Part shown: positions 4,814-21,402 of the stretch, piece after piece
Position numbering within the stretch: the stretch's first letter is position 1
Layout: every line of letters begins with the position of its first letter
Assembly (NCBI RefSeq): GCF_006351005.1
Contig: NZ_VENP01000002.1
Coordinates: 1 to 64,000, forward strand
Source: Miniimonas arenae
Lineage (GTDB): Bacteria; Actinomycetota; Actinomycetes; Actinomycetales; Beutenbergiaceae
Direction of reading: 5' to 3'
Length of the DNA: 64,000 nucleotides
Notes under the pieces: generated by a model
What the model was told of the DNA's origin: nothing
The model's input: only the letters and a program-made list of their open reading frames with translations
Databases searched by the model: none
Made by a program: the position numbers and the translations under genes

Positions 4814-6294
4814 GCCGGGGCGAGAAGCTGCATACCGCTGTCCTCGTCGCCCCCGCATCGGAGCGGCGCCGGCTGCGCAAGCAGCGGCGGCAAGCGGCCG
4901 CCCGGCTCGTCGCCGAGCAACGCCAGGTCGAGAAGGAAGCGGCCCAGGCCAAGGCCGCCGCCGAACGGGCCGAACGCCGCGCCACGGTCTATCTCCCCGC
5001 CGCGGGCGAGCCCGGCCCGGCGGCGCTGAGGACGCCGGGCCGGTTCCGGGTGCCCCGGCATCAGGACACCAGCGCGGTGCTCGCTGGGCAGTACCCGTTC
5101 CTGGCCGAAGCCGGGCTCGGAGCCGCGGGAATCTTCATCGGCCAAGACCTCTACAGCGGCTCGTCGTTCGTGTACGACCCGTGGGAGTTGTACCGCAGGG
5201 GCTTCATCACCGCGCCGAATCTGATCTTGGCCGGGATCGTCGGCTCCGGGAAATCGTCGCTCGCCAAGAGCCTCTACACCCGCAGCCTGCCCTTCGGATA
5301 CAGGGTCTATGTCCCCGGCGACCCCAAGGGCGAGCACTCCGGGGTCGCGGAAGCAGTCGGCGGGAAAGCGATCATCCTCGGACACGGGATGGGCAACAGG
5401 CTCAACCCACTCGATGAGGGCTACCGGCCCGGTGGTCTGTCCGACCAGGAGTGGGCCACCACCCTCGCCGCGCGGCGCCGCGATCTGCTCGGAGCCTTGA
5501 CGGAGACGGTGCTGGATCGACGGTTGGCGCCGTTGGAACACACCGCGAACGACACCGCCCTGGCCGGGGCGGTGCGGGACGCCGACGTGCCGATCCTGCC
5601 GATGGTGGTCGAGCGGCTGCTGCGCCCCGACCCTGCCGACGACCCGGACGGCCGGCTCACCGAGGACGGCCGTCAGGTCGGCCACGCGCTGCGCCGGTTG
5701 GTGGCCGGGGACTTGGCCGGTCTGTTCGACGGGCCGAGCACGGTCAGGTTCGACCCGTCGTGGCCGATGGTCAGTCTCGATCTTTCGCGCGTCACGGAGA
5801 ACAGCACGCTGATTTCGGTGCTGATGACCTGCTCGTCGGCATGGATGGAAGCTGCCCTGCTCGACCCCCACGGCGGCCGCAGATGGGTCATCTATGACGA
5901 GGCATGGCGGCTTATGTCCCACCCGGCGCTGCTGCGGAGGATGGATGCGCACTGGCGGCTGGCGAGGCACTACGGGCTGGCGAATCTGCTCGTGTTCCAC
6001 AAGTTGACCGACTTGGAGAACGTCGGCGATGCGGGGTCGGCGAACCGGGCGCTGGCGAACAGCCTGCTGGCGAACGCGGAGACGAGGATCGTCTACCGGC
6101 AGGAGACCGATCAGCTCGGCCCCACCGCCCTCGCGCTCGGGCTGACCGGCACCGAACGCCGCCTGCTGCCTGGCCTCGGCACCGGGCAAGGGCTCTGGCG
6201 GATCAAGGACCGGGCGTTCGTGGTGCAGCACCAGCTCCACCCCGCCGAGCTGGCCGCGTTCGACACCACCGCCCGCATGACCGGAAACCCGTAA
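4810..6294 (+). CDS. VirB4-like conjugation ATPase
   Basis: A 494-residue ATPase that would power assembly of, or transport through, the type IV secretion channel at the cytoplasmic membrane. Residues 20-60 form a charged, Ala/Arg/Glu-rich probable coiled coil. Walker A is GIVGSGKS (142-149) and Walker B is VIYDEAW (360-366), followed by the arginine-containing HWRLARHYGL region typical of VirB4/TraC. The GTG at 4810 overlaps the stop of the preceding gene (GTGA). An in-frame ATG at 4756 would add 18 residues inside that gene and is considered less likely. No membrane segment is present. Confidence 0.88.
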   Translation: MSRGEKLHTAVLVAPASERRRLRKQRRQAAARLVAEQRQVEKEAAQAKAAAERAERRATVYLPAAGEPGPAALRTPGRFRVPRHQDTSAVLAGQYPFLAEAGLGAAGIFIGQDLYSGSSFVYDPWELYRRGFITAPNLILAGIVGSGKSSLAKSLYTRSLPFGYRVYVPGDPKGEHSGVAEAVGGKAIILGHGMGNRLNPLDEGYRPGGLSDQEWATTLAARRRDLLGALTETVLDRRLAPLEHTANDTALAGAVRDADVPILPMVVERLLRPDPADDPDGRLTEDGRQVGHALRRLVAGDLAGLFDGPSTVRFDPSWPMVSLDLSRVTENSTLISVLMTCSSAWMEAALLDPHGGRRWVIYDEAWRLMSHPALLRRMDAHWRLARHYGLANLLVFHKLTDLENVGDAGSANRALANSLLANAETRIVYRQETDQLGPTALALGLTGTERRLLPGLGTGQGLWRIKDRAFVVQHQLHPAELAAFDTTARMTGNP

Positions 6295-6360
6295 GTTCAC
6301 GAATCCTGACCGGAACCGCGCGGCCCATGCGCGTAGTCGGGCTCGGGCTCACCTCGCGGC

Positions 6361-6873
6361 ATGAGGAAACCCGAGCCTGAGCCCGTCCCGGTCTCCATCC
6401 CGCTGGTCGTGCTCGACGTGCACGAGGACGGCACCGTGACCGTCACCGTCGACGGGAAACGGCTGGACCCCGACCCTTTCGCGCCGCCGTGGCGACGATC
6501 CTCGTTCGGGCAGATCATCGACCGCGCCACGAACGATCGGACGACACCGGCCAGGGTCGAGGTCCGCGAGGCGGACGGCACGATCTTCACCGACATCATC
6601 GCCGCGCGTCGCCGGCGTTCCCGCCCCGAGCCCGAACCGGAACCGAAGGCGCCGGCCGGGCCGGCGTTCCACACCGTCGAGGGCGCGGGGTTCGTTCCCG
6701 GCGAGGACGTGGCGGTCGCCGTCGTCACCGGGCACACCGACGCCGCCCACACCGGCACCGCGCGCGCCCTCATCGACCCGGCCGGGGTCGGCGTCGATCA
6801 GACCGGCGGGGTCATCGAGGTCATCCTGTTCGGCCGGGTCTCCGGGACCGCGATCATCCGGCGCCTGCCGTGA
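6361..6873 (+). CDS. Hypothetical ICE protein preceding the coupling protein
   Basis: A 170-residue soluble protein with two parts joined by a proline/glutamate linker (RPEPEPEPKAPAGPA, about residues 87-101). The first part has a strand-rich start (PLVVLDVHEDGTVTVTVDGK), and the second resembles a small beta domain (HTVEGAGFVPGEDVAVAVV). No known motif was recognised. Its TGA (6871-6873) overlaps the GTG start of the VirD4-like gene, implying coupled translation. It is probably an accessory transfer protein, but the function is unknown. Confidence 0.65.
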   Translation: MRKPEPEPVPVSIPLVVLDVHEDGTVTVTVDGKRLDPDPFAPPWRRSSFGQIIDRATNDRTTPARVEVREADGTIFTDIIAARRRRSRPEPEPEPKAPAGPAFHTVEGAGFVPGEDVAVAVVTGHTDAAHTGTARALIDPAGVGVDQTGGVIEVILFGRVSGTAIIRRLP

Positions 6874-17265: not shown

Positions 17266-18378
17266 GTGCTCGACCACGCGGCGCGGGTCCTCGCCGAGCT
17301 GGACGCCGGGCGCAGCCTCGCGCTCGCCGTCGTGATCGGGGTGGACGGGAGCGCGCCGCACCCGGTCGGGACGTCGATGCTCGTGCTGCCACCGGTGGAG
17401 TACGCGGCGCGCGCCGCGACGGCGAGCGAACCGCTCGACCCGTGGCTCGCCGTCGGGCCCCGCGAGGTGGTGGGCAACGTGTCGGGCGGGTGTGTCGAGG
17501 CCGACGTGGTGACGCGTGCCATGGACGCGCTCGGGCTCGGCGCGGGATCGACCGCGGACCTGCCGGCGACCTGCTCCTACGGCTGGGACGCCGACCGCGC
17601 CGTCTCGCTGGGGCTGACGTGCGGGGGCGTGGTGGGGGTCGCCGTCGTGCGCCTGGACCCCGACCTGCCTGCCGACATGCGGGCGGCGTTCGCGGCGGCC
17701 GCGTCCGGCGGCGCGGCGTCGCTCGCGCTCGTGATGCACGACGGCGCCGCGCACCTGAGCACCCCGGCCCGCCTCGGCCTGGGCGAGCCGGCGCCGGGCG
17801 CGCGCCTCGTCGACCTGCCCGACGGCGGCTCCGCGCTGGTGGTCGGGCGGGGCGCTCCGCCCGCGCTGCTCGTGTACGGCGCGACCGACGTGGCAGGTGA
17901 ACTCGCTGCTCTCGGGCGCCGGCTCGGCTACCGCGTCTCGGTGTGCGACCCGCGGGCGGCGTTCCTGCGGCCTGAGCGACTGCCGGACGCGGACGAGCTG
18001 GTGCTCGCCCGACCGGTCGAGCACCTTCGCGCCACGCCCACCGACGCGCGGACCGCGGTCTGCGTGCTCAGCCACGACGAGGGCGCGGAGGTGCCGCTGC
18101 TGGTCGAGGCGCTCGGGCGCGACCTCGGGTACGTCGGGGCGCTCGGGTCGCGGCGCACGCATGCGCGGCGCGTCGCGCTGCTGCGCGACGCCGGCGTGCC
18201 GACCGAGCGGCTCGCGCGGCTGCGGGGGCCGATCGGGCTGGACCTGGGCGGACGCACCGCGGCGGAGACGGCGCTGTCGATCCTCGCGGAGGTCGTGGCG
18301 TGCGCGCACGGACGGGGCGGCGGGCCGCTGTCTCTCGGGGCCGGGGCGATCCACGGGGAGCTCGTCCGTACGCATTGA
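17266..18378 (+). CDS. xdhC: XdhC-family maturation factor for xanthine dehydrogenase
   Basis: A 370-residue XdhC/CoxI-family protein, which in studied members binds molybdenum cofactor, promotes its sulfuration and inserts it into xanthine dehydrogenase. The N-terminal XdhC_CoxI domain contains NVSGGCVEADV (about 69-79) and SYGWD. The C-terminal Rossmann-like domain has [20 protein letters not shown] and ends with GPIGLDLGGRTAAETALSIL, typical of the family. GTG 17266 starts one base after the permease stop. The stop codon lies inside a copy of the CATTGACTGGTCG repeat. Confidence 0.9.
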   Translation: MLDHAARVLAELDAGRSLALAVVIGVDGSAPHPVGTSMLVLPPVEYAARAATASEPLDPWLAVGPREVVGNVSGGCVEADVVTRAMDALGLGAGSTADLPATCSYGWDADRAVSLGLTCGGVVGVAVVRLDPDLPADMRAAFAAAASGGAASLALVMHDGAAHLSTPARLGLGEPAPGARLVDLPDGGSALVVGRGAPPALLVYGATDVAGELAALGRRLGYRVSVCDPRAAFLRPERLPDADELVLARPVEHLRATPTDARTAVCVLSHDEGAEVPLLVEALGRDLGYVGALGSRRTHARRVALLRDAGVPTERLARLRGPIGLDLGGRTAAETALSILAEVVACAHGRGGGPLSLGAGAIHGELVRTH

Positions 18379-18501
18379 CTGGTCGCCCGTGCACATTGAC
18401 TGGTCGAACCGGCGGCGCCGCACCGCGACCTGCGAGAACGCGTCCGCGAACCGTCCCGGTGGCGATCTGGCCAGTCAATGTGCACGGGCGACCAGTCAAT
18501 G
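18373..18501. repeat. Long inverted repeat built from tandem CATTGACTGGTCG units
   Basis: The left arm (18373-18406) holds CATTGACTGGTCG twice at 21-base spacing (18373 and 18394). The right arm (18468-18501) holds the reverse complement twice at the same spacing. The arms match at 32 of 34 positions around a 61-base loop. The left arm includes the xdhC stop codon, and the right arm ends 16 bases before the convergent xanthine dehydrogenase stop. It may be a bidirectional terminator or mRNA-stabilising stem; alternatively the 21-base phased units may bind a dimeric regulator or be a mobile palindrome. Confidence 0.9.
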
Positions 18502-18516
18502 TGACCGGGCCAGGAG

Positions 18517-21402
18517 TCAGAGCGACTGGGCGTCCGCGCCGGAACGCGCGGCGGACTCGTCCCGCATCGCCCGCCAGACCCGGTCGCGGCTGAACGGCGC
18601 CTGCGTCACCCGCACCCCGATCGCGCGCGAGATCGCATTCCCCACCGCGGCCGCGACCGGGTTGAACGGCGACTCGCTCATCGACTTGGCCCCGTACGGC
18701 CCGAGCGAGTCCGAGGTCTGCGCGAACAGCACGTGCGTGCGCGGCACGTCGGCGAGCTGCGGCACCCGGTAGTTGCGGAAGGCCGCCGTCAGCACGCGGC
18801 CGTCCTCGATCGTGACCTCCTCCCACAGCGCGCTGCCGTACCCCTGCGCCGCGCCGCCCTCCACCTGACCCCGGCACTGCTCGGGGTTCATCACGGTGCC
18901 GGCGTCGGCGGCCTGCACACTGCGCAGCACGCGCACCTCGCCGGTCGCGGGATCGACGGCCACGCGCAGCGCGTGCACGTTGAACGCCACCGAGCGCACG
19001 TCCCCGTTCTCCACGCCGCGCCCCACGACGCCGTGCGCGTCCCGCTCGCCGGCCGGCGCGTGCCGGACGAGCACCGCGAACGGCACGGTGCCGACCGGGG
19101 TCCGCACGCCGTCGGGCGCCATCGCGCACTCGGCCACCGGCACGCCGGTGGTGACCGCCGCGATCTCGAGGAGCCGCACCCGCAGCACCGTCGCCGCGGC
19201 GTGCGCGGCCTTGCCCGCCACCGTGATGCCCGCCGAGGCGAACGCCCCGGTGTCGTAGCCCGAGGCGTCGGTGTCGGAGTGGCGCAAGTCGACCTGAGCG
19301 GGGTCGGCACCCATGGCCTCCGCCACGATCTGCCGGTGCACCGTCACGGTGCCCTGACCGAAGTCGGTGGTGCCCACCCGGATGAGGTACCGGCCCTCGC
19401 CGTCGACCGAGACGGTGGCCTCGCTGCGGTGACCGCGCGGCGCCATCGTGGCGATCAGCGCCGTGGCCATGCCCTCGCCGACGAGCCAGCCGGGCGGGGC
19501 CGGCACGTCGTCCGGGCCGGCGAGGGCCTCCTGCGCGAGGTCGAGGCACTGGTCCAGTCCGTAGCTGCCGTAGAGCAGGTCGGGGTCCGGGTCGGGCTCG
19601 AACGTCAGCAGCGGGTCGCCCTCGCGCACCGAGGTGCGCCGACGCAGCTCGAACGGGTCGAGGTCCAGCTCCAGGGCGAGGAGGTCCAGCGCACCCTCGA
19701 CGGCGAGGATCACCTGTCCCAGGCCGTAGCCGCGGAAGGCGCCCGACGGCGGGTTGTTCGTGTAGACCGCCTCGCCGCGCACACGCTTGGCGTCGGCGCG
19801 GTACAGGCTGATCGACTCGGCGCACGCGTGGAAGAGCACCCCACGGGAGTGGTTGCCGTAGGCGCCGGTGTCCGAGACCGCCTCCACGTCCATCGCGGTC
19901 AGCGTGCCGTCCCGGCGCGACCCGAGCCGCACCGACACCGTGAACGGGTGCCGCAGCGACGTGCGCAGGAACTCCTCCTCGCGCGTCATCTCGTACACGA
20001 CCGGCCGCCCCAGGCGCAGCACGGCGGCCGCCACGAGGTCCTCGGTGAGGATCTCCTGCTTCCCGCCGAAGCCGCCGCCCACCCGCGCGGTGAACACCCG
20101 CACGCGGTCCGGCTCGAGGCCGAAGACGTGGCAGAGCTCGTCGCGCGTGAGGAACGGGACCTGGCTCGACGTGCGGATGACGAGGCGACCGTCCTCGTCC
20201 AGCCAGCCCACGCTCGCGTGCGTCTCGAGCTGGGCGTGCGTCTGCCGCTGGCTGCGCCAGACCCCGCCCACGACGACGTCACTCGCCTCGAGCGTCGCGT
20301 CGACGTCGCCCCGCTCGCCGCCGAAGGAGAGCACGACGTTGCGTGCGGCGTCGTCGACGCGGTCCGCGGGCGTGCGGCCGGCGTGCAGGACCGGCGCGCC
20401 GGGGGCGCGCGCCGCGTCCACGTCGAAGACGGCGGGGAGCACGTCGTACTCGACCTCGACGAGTGCGCAGGCGGCGCGCGCGGTGGCGAGGGTGTCGGCG
20501 ACGACCGCGGCGACCCGCTGGCCGACGTGCCGCACGACGTCGTCGAGCAGGCGGGTGTCGTCGGGATCGTCGGTGCGGTGCTCGTGTCGCGCGCTGGAGT
20601 AGCGCACGTCCGGTGCGTCCTCGTGCGTGAGCACGAGCGCGACGCCGGGCAGCGCCTCCGCGCGCGACGTGTCGATCGCGCGGATGCGCGCATGCGCGTG
20701 CGGGCTGCCGAGCACCGCGAGGTGGAGGACGCCGGCGGGCAGCTCGTCGAGCGTGAACGGTTCGCGGCCCTGCACGACCCGGCGCCCCGGGCCCGGGCGG
20801 ACGGACGCGCCGACCGCGTGGGGCGACGGGGCGGACGTGGGTGCCGGGGCGCTCGTGGGCACGGCTGCGTCGCTCGTGGGCACGGCGATCGGGTCCGGCG
20901 CGGACGCCGTGGCCGGTGTCGTGGGGGTTGCCCCGGGGCACGTCCCGCACAACCCCGCGCACCCCGACGCACGCGAGACGCCGGCCGTCACCGCCTCCCG
21001 GATCGCCCGGTACCCCGTGCAGCGGCACAGGTTGCCCTTGAGCCGGCGGTCGAGGTCGGGCAGGTCGTCGTGGGTGAGCTGCGACGCGGTGACCGCCAGC
21101 CCCGGCGTGCAGAACCCGCACTGGAACGCGAAGCGCTCGACCAGGGCCTCCTGCACGGGGTGCAGCGCGTCCCCCGGCGCGAGGCCGCCCGCCGTCGTCA
21201 CGGTGCGGTCGACCGCGCGCTGCGCCGGCACGAGGCACGAGTGCACGGCCGTGCCGTCGAGCAGCACGGTGCACGCCCCGCAGTCCCCCGCGTCGCAGCC
21301 CTTCTTGACCTCGCGGTGCCCGAGGTCGCGCAGCAGCGTGCGCAGGCACTGGCCGGGGGCGGGCGTCGCGTCGTGGGCCTCGCCGTCCACCTCGAGCCTC
21401 AC
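18517..21402 (-). CDS. Xanthine dehydrogenase, fused [2Fe-2S] and molybdopterin subunit
   Basis: A 961-residue protein. The N-terminal iron-sulfur part has Cys36/41/44/56 ([17 protein letters not shown]) and Cys95/98/126/128 ([16 protein letters not shown]). After an Ala/Pro/Thr/Ser linker (about 157-205) comes the molybdenum-binding domain, with motifs such as [19 protein letters not shown] and a late active-site region [14 protein letters not shown]. It oxidises hypoxanthine/xanthine-type substrates with the FAD subunit encoded upstream. GTG 21402 overlaps that gene's stop (GTGA). An extra CX3CX2C (Cys148/152/155) lies just before the linker. Substrate is inferred from guaD, xdhC and family. 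Confidence 0.9.

Follow-up and report, generated by a model that had tools for sequence, protein, structure and literature searches.

Phased palindromic elements with a common core, paired family by family with predicted AbiEi-Vsr-like nuclease genes in Miniimonas arenae

Pairing between a gene and dispersed palindromes has been described for the REPIN-RAYT systems, in which palindromes are scattered through intergenic DNA, the gene carries cognate repeats on either side, and several families, each with its own paralogue, are found in one genome (accessible parts of PMC2817692 and PMC3116915). The enzyme of these systems, RAYT, is a Y1/HUH tyrosine transposase, and RAYT genes are surrounded by inverted REPs. 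Two further systems bear on the present work through their proteins. I-Bth0305I, a Vsr-like homing endonuclease of the EDxHD type, binds as a dimer to a target almost 60 bp long (accessible part of PMC3943268), and AbiEi and Rv2827c of type IV toxin-antitoxin systems repress their own promoters by binding 23-bp inverted repeats there (accessible part of PMC7319586). Finally, miniature inverted-repeat elements and other short transposons are non-coding elements with inverted repeats, and a length periodicity of about 10 bp is reported for short transposons and the Paramecium IESs (accessible part of PMC3464196). Here we describe palindromic elements of Miniimonas arenae and compare them with these systems.

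The window, that is, the whole stretch of 64,000 nucleotides that was analysed, contains a palindrome spanning positions 18361-18513 between an xdhC-like gene and a xanthine dehydrogenase-like gene (Table 1). An earlier note on this DNA had taken these genes to be convergent, and the gene calls agree, with xdhC on the forward strand and the xanthine dehydrogenase gene on the reverse strand. It had also reported four copies of one 13-base unit; three of them are exact copies of CATTGACTGGTCG, but the fourth is a near copy, CATTGACTGGCCA, in which 2 of 13 bases differ. The remainder of its description holds: the start-to-start spacing of the units is exactly 21 bases in both arms, the 34-base inverted arms mismatch at 2 positions, and the TGA stop codon of xdhC (18376-18378) falls inside the first unit. 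Without gaps, the inverted repeat can be followed over 43 nt, with 88% complementarity and 67 nt between the arms, and the stop codon of the xanthine dehydrogenase gene lies 4 bp beyond it. Comparison among elements further revealed a core, GCGTTCTCGCAGGTCG, which was not mentioned in the note and whose 11-mer part is 34 and 22 nt from the arm units in the core orientation.

Table 1. Positions of the window element, its neighbouring genes and the three nuclease genes
Feature	Position	Strand	Remark
xdhC-like gene (XdhC_C, XdhC_CoxI)	17266..18378	+	Pfam
Left arm	18361..18403	+	two 21-bp-phased units: CGCATTGACTGG 18371-18382, CACATTGACTGG 18392-18403
Exact CATTGACTGGTCG units	18373-18385, 18394-18406	+	left arm of window element
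Core, window version GCGTTCTCGCAGGTCG of common GCRTCGCCGCAGGTCA	18426..18441	-	sequence comparison among elements
Near-copy unit CATTGACTGGCCA	18468-18480	-	2/13 differ from CATTGACTGGTCG
Right arm	18471..18513	-	two inverted 21-bp-phased units, 18471-18482 and 18492-18503
Exact CATTGACTGGTCG unit	18489-18501	-	right arm of window element
Xanthine dehydrogenase-like gene (Fer2, Fer2_2, Ald_Xan_dh_C, MoCoBD_1, MoCoBD_2)	18517..21402	-	Pfam
F1 nuclease gene	L210:5290-6294 (C108)		between elements 5080-5223 and 6318-6462
F2 nuclease gene	L305:2725-3735 (C77)		between cores 2464 and 3829
F3 nuclease gene	L308:2535-3536 (C58)	-	between cores 2404 and 3704

When we searched the high-GC draft genome (3,402,690 bases in 148 contigs), the window palindrome proved to be one of 21 elements of a family, named family 1 (F1), and a single non-conserved occurrence, which the earlier note had named as the outcome against its reading, is thereby excluded within this genome. 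In 20 of the 21 elements each inverted arm holds two CRCWTTGACTGG units at a distance of 21 bp, four in all, and the remaining one (C109:2355-2478) has a single unit per arm. The exact CATTGACTGGTCG-type 13-mer occurs 5 times genome-wide and the exact 12-base CNCWTTGACTGG 51 times, as against 0 for the backwards-read control in both cases. Of the CNCWTTGACTGG matches, 49 lie in the 20 two-unit elements and 2 in the single-unit element, and no solitary exact unit was found outside F1 elements anywhere in the genome. A whole-genome search for arms, defined as two TTGACTGG units 21 bp apart with up to 3 mismatches, gave 54 matches (control 8), of which 40 are both arms of the 20 elements and the others are overlapping registers or weak single matches. 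Each left arm of these 20 elements is paired with a right arm 95-126 bp off, and the draft genome contains no unpaired arm. The F1 repeat is no chance product.

Within the units, ACTG and the C at position -4 are invariant in 80/80 cases (20 elements), and conservation ends at about -9 outside the arms. The interiors are little alike, with a mean identity of 0.60 vs 0.52 for shuffles; the highest value, 0.72, joins the window element and that of locus L199, and no near-identical young copy was seen. F1 elements possess terminal inverted repeats, and target-site duplications were no commoner than in permuted flank pairs (best p 0.11). Since target-site duplications and young copies are both lacking, and since the two F1 elements that flank the nuclease gene described below do not form a closest pair (identity of their interiors 0.56, ranking 143rd of 190), recent mobility is not visible.

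A form of GCRTCGCCGCAGGTCA, facing one way or the other, is present in every F1 interior, and the distances around this core take a few discrete values. The core 11-mer is 33/34 nt from the left arm in 18/21 elements and 44 nt in the others, and its distance to the right arm is 21/22, 32, 42/43 or 53 nt. The arm-to-arm distances are 95-96, 105-106, 115-117 and 126, with a 137-equivalent in the single-unit element. When these unit-core and arm-arm distances were examined at a period of 10.5 bp, the Rayleigh R values were 0.91, 0.97 and 0.97, and not one of 20,000 uniform draws gave values as high, although the resulting p-value is too strong because the elements are related. The distances require four or more separate changes in length, each amounting to roughly one turn of the helix, with a jitter of 1 bp. 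Since a comb of about 10.5 bp corresponds to the DNA helical repeat, the spacing points to proteins gathered on a single face of double-stranded DNA in F1 elements rather than to an RNA stem. We also compared the inter-unit spacers, which match between the two arms of one F1 element at 9.05 of 13 positions vs 7.82 between elements (p 0.00025); the outer and inner flanks show no such arm-to-arm matching (p 0.55 and 0.79). This likeness of the two arms would reflect inter-arm repair rather than RNA pairing.

A scan of the DNA around the loci for phased inverted arms revealed a second unit, AGCGACT, around the GCRTCGCCGCAGGTCA core. The core was then searched in the whole genome with up to 3 mismatches (152 matches vs 79 for the reversed control), and the families were delimited from the 30 best core loci among 100 of the matching places, the 21-phase positions and an extra 773 kb. 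Four core loci (L274, L281, L284 and L290) were left out as coding or chance, L276 is a core without units, and in the extra 773 kb L383 was the one F3 row with a degenerate core that was kept. Family 2 (F2, unit AGCGACT) comprises at least 16 elements with 2-5 units per arm, whose innermost units lie, in 16/16 elements, at -34/-35 and +47 relative to the core and whose unit steps are 21, save one of 20 and one of 22. Some F2 elements have unequal arms, with 5 and 3 or 4 and 3 units. Family 3 (F3, unit GCGGACG) comprises at least 3 elements with units at about -45 and +57 from the core. Thus F1, F2 and F3 follow one plan, with a common core and different arm units; compared by eye, the units have a common upstream half (GTGACGC, GTGCGC or GACGC) and are unlike downstream.

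The single-unit F1 element shares one convergent gap with an F2 element (C109, L215:1908-2480). Other phased inverted arrays were also observed. Those with 22-bp units TTCGTCCTTTCGCGAGGTGATG are found at L297:4678-4830 (C56), L367:6802 (C72) and L370:12406 (C72); the L297 array has a palindromic centre without the common core, and no nuclease paralogue was seen beside the TTCGTCCTTTCGCGAGGTGATG arrays. Phased inverted repeats with a 19-bp pitch around AGAACGG occur at L367:9810, L375:18799 and L377:9909-10450, and AGAACGG repeats form a long tandem cluster at one place.

We then examined the genes around 35 elements (21 F1, 12 F2 and 2 F3; L297 and L298 excluded), all of which are intergenic. 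The earlier expectation that copies always sit between convergent genes does not hold, as strictly convergent placement applies to 17/35 elements only (11/21 for F1 alone), with 10 in tandem and 8 in divergent gaps. Convergent gaps are nevertheless enriched (17/35 vs 36/232 other gaps, Fisher p 3.3e-5) and tandem gaps are depleted relative to the same 232 gaps; for convergent against divergent gaps only, p is 0.07. The neighbours are unrelated housekeeping genes according to Pfam, with the exception of one gene type. Each of the three families has one paralogous gene of about 335 codons with an element of its own family on both sides (3/3 families; Table 1). The full F1 and F3 frames were obtained by tblastn with the F2 protein, because the initial gene calls began too late, and these two paralogues share 41% and 45% identity with that protein. 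At the F1 gene, one flanking element ends 66 bp before the gene and the other starts 23 bp after it, and in 3/3 families the two elements of the flanking pair have the same core orientation.

Such genes are rare, a handful in this genome, and an unaimed 773 kb sample of it contained one only, the F3 gene; a triple pairing by chance is therefore very unlikely, the estimates of chance flanking being rough ones in which the gene number (3,100) and the F2 and F3 counts were guesses. A Pfam search of the genome for DUF559 returned the F1 gene alone above the cut-off, and the pairing would be missed by Pfam alone because the F2 gene has no Pfam match. A fourth, distant paralogue (L303:228-1271, C82; 29% identity, E 9e-4) was also observed, which is bracketed (1-130 and 1288-1530) by a 66-81 bp repeat containing GTGTGACG...CGTCACAC that is unlike the F1-F3 elements.

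The paralogues share the conserved motif VGEVD..LVDG...EIDG...H...DRRRDR, which we take to fit a PD-(D/E)XK/Vsr-like nuclease. In Pfam, the F1 protein matches DUF559 (E 1.6e-5) and the F3 protein MTES_1575 (E 5e-4); PADLOC AbiEi profiles match the N-termini of the paralogues (best 1e-7), and NCBIfam profiles gave nothing useful for them. An AlphaFold model built from the three-sequence alignment has a mean pLDDT of 69, with residues 60-122 below 50. In a Foldseek search with this model, AbiEi (6y8q) was the best match (E 3e-4) and Rv2827c (1zel) the third. With VIA-align, the top structure was I-Bth0305I (3r3p_B; Z 9.4, rmsd 3.2, 96/98 residues) over model residues 189-288, a match for which the Foldseek E-value is poor (2.9). 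Based on this moderate-quality model, the protein is predicted to consist of an AbiEi-like winged helix fused to an I-Bth0305I-like nuclease domain, and its catalysis is predicted to be Vsr-like. To our knowledge, no function is known for Vsr/DUF559-type genes with AbiEi-like N-termini, and the open-licence papers found on DUF559, in their titles and the beginnings of their abstracts, make no tie to dispersed repeats.

We searched for F1 in samples of 24 genomes of the taxonomic family, 396 of the order and 394 of the class, the genus being represented by one genome. None of the 23 other family genomes contained F1. Matches were found in 19/395 other genomes of the order, never more than one in a genome, and in 13/393 other genomes of the class, where they were weak (16.8-21.6 bits vs 52.5-59.2 here); we read the order and class matches as chance. 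Neither the F1 query, the F2 query, the F2 protein nor the paralogue alignment found a plasmid, phage or viral copy. In Gordonia tangerina, intergenic direct arrays of 20-21 bp units CGTTGACTGGGCGCC (L059, L069 and L100) resemble the F1 unit; inverted arms are lacking, and the 8 kb loci hold no homologue of the nuclease. When 400 kb of genome G008 and 440 kb of genome G002 were scanned de novo for phased inverted arms, one spurious 20-bp match resulted, a weak negative because a like scan with 8-mers recovered 11/20 two-unit F1 elements. The relative G002 possesses a distant DUF559-type homologue (L342:4183-5478) without flanking phased palindromes, and this homologue adjoins a transposase-like gene, the two lying within L342:2686-5478.

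Compared with the described systems, the present elements resemble REPIN-RAYT in their intergenic dispersal (35/35), in the cognate elements on either side of the gene (3/3 families), and in the presence of several families with a paralogue each. They differ in that the enzyme is AbiEi-Vsr-like by prediction, that the elements are larger and consist of units in helical phase, 21 bp in size, on either side of a common core, and that the flanking elements are direct by core orientation (3/3). In our judgement the comparison is one of organisation and not of membership, since the enzyme is of another type and the flanking elements are oriented otherwise. The likeness to I-Bth0305I lies in the predicted catalytic fold. 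Unlike that system, the gene here is free-standing, encodes an AbiEi-like N-terminus, is accompanied by many solo elements, and is bracketed by complete element copies instead of splitting one target. With AbiEi and Rv2827c, the proteins share the predicted N-terminal fold and profile matches; here, however, a predicted nuclease domain at the C-terminus replaces the antitoxicity domain, the sites are dispersed through the genome, and no AbiEii (DUF1814) toxin gene was found among the scanned flanking genes, which were the called neighbours of the three nuclease genes, the F2 downstream neighbour being read as DNA only. In contrast to miniature inverted-repeat elements and short transposons, the arm unit varies and the centre is constant, with no target-site duplication and no autonomous copy found between arms. 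The open-licence literature yielded no description of such a nuclease-palindrome pairing, and a subscription paper could contain one.

We suggest that the elements are binding, and perhaps cutting, sites of the cognate AbiEi-Vsr nuclease, family by family, a reading to which we assign a probability of roughly 0.6. The window element would then be a nucleoprotein assembly site of F1 within a modular system, in which family-specific protomers would bind the 21-bp units on one helix face and point inward to the core. The binding protein would most likely be the 'AbiEi-Vsr' nuclease of that family; we propose this arrangement by combining the repeat binding of AbiEi/Rv2827c with the I-Bth0305I dimer on nearly 60 bp. 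The nuclease domains would meet near the core and cut at or near it (GCAGGTCA), and we infer that the elements may be spread or maintained by cutting and repair. The scattered copies, among them that between xdhC and the xanthine dehydrogenase gene, would be non-autonomous, with the nuclease acting on them in trans as RAYTs are assumed to act on REPINs, and those beside a nuclease gene could serve additionally as its operator. The two-site operator and the mobile palindromic element that had been offered earlier are each partly right: the elements resemble arrays of phased protein sites, and the palindromes do form a dispersed family, one without target-site duplications or young copies. More tentatively, and with slightly less than an even chance in our estimate, the system may represent an undescribed selfish or domesticated class, in which free-standing AbiEi-Vsr nucleases cut modular palindromes and spread or maintain them via repair, orthogonal families coexist, and each nuclease is bracketed by its own sites. 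In more cautious wording, it may be a variant of the REPIN-RAYT type of pairing.

Other explanations need to be considered. The winged-helix paralogues might bind the arrays in their own promoters and elsewhere as dispersed operators or architectural sites, without cutting or mobility. This would agree with the self-repression by AbiEi and Rv2827c, with the F1 element that stops 66 bp ahead of the nuclease start, and with strong unit conservation without recent copies, which suits maintained sites. We nevertheless consider it unlikely, as 17/35 elements lie in convergent gaps without a promoter to control, elements adjoin unrelated housekeeping genes and also lie 3' of each nuclease gene, and the conserved nuclease motif would require another role. 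It is less probable still that the elements are miniature inverted-repeat elements of an unrelated transposase, whose sites would be the arms, with the comb produced by short-end synapsis and the nuclease genes as passengers. The periodicity of short transposons and IESs, the dispersal of the elements, and the confinement of F1 to this genome among the family, order and class samples are in line with such an origin. However, passengers would hardly explain three families each with a paralogue of one gene, target-site duplication is absent, and the superfamily that was searched, the rve type, has two genes in the genome, neither of them beside phased arrays, so that an rve-type transposase was rejected as the partner. 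One rve-type gene lies on a 7.8 kb contig (L296, C129) together with AAA ATPase, serine-recombinase-like and mercuric-reductase-like genes, presumably a Tn402/Tn5053-type mercury transposon.

At the RNA level, the palindrome could act as a long hairpin, either a bidirectional terminator or a 3'-end protector, and the earlier note had proposed a stem masking both mRNA ends. The window element has a predicted fold of -102.7 kcal/mol (z -9.5), and both the enrichment in convergent gaps and the matching spacers of the two arms would suit such a role. Against this, no terminator with a U-tract (a GC-rich stem followed by a T run) is found at 18300-18600, and Rfam gave no family at gathering score, with two sub-threshold microRNA matches. 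Eight of 35 elements lie in divergent and 10 in tandem gaps, some F2 elements have unequal numbers of arm units, the flanks lack the arm matching seen in the spacers, and an RNA role gives no reason for the 10.5 bp comb. Because of the divergent and tandem settings, the missing U-tract and the B-DNA-repeat spacings, the mRNA-stem idea is not needed, and we regard a terminator or other RNA element as highly improbable.

With nuclease recognition as the preferred reading, the three paralogues, each with its own candidate target family in one genome, provide a testable substrate per enzyme, and the common core with changing units is a natural experiment on change in DNA-binding specificity. Gene-palindrome pairing of the REPIN-RAYT kind would gain a second enzyme type, unrelated to the first, and the system would explain an odd intergenic sequence between xdhC and the xanthine dehydrogenase gene that would otherwise be dismissed as a terminator.
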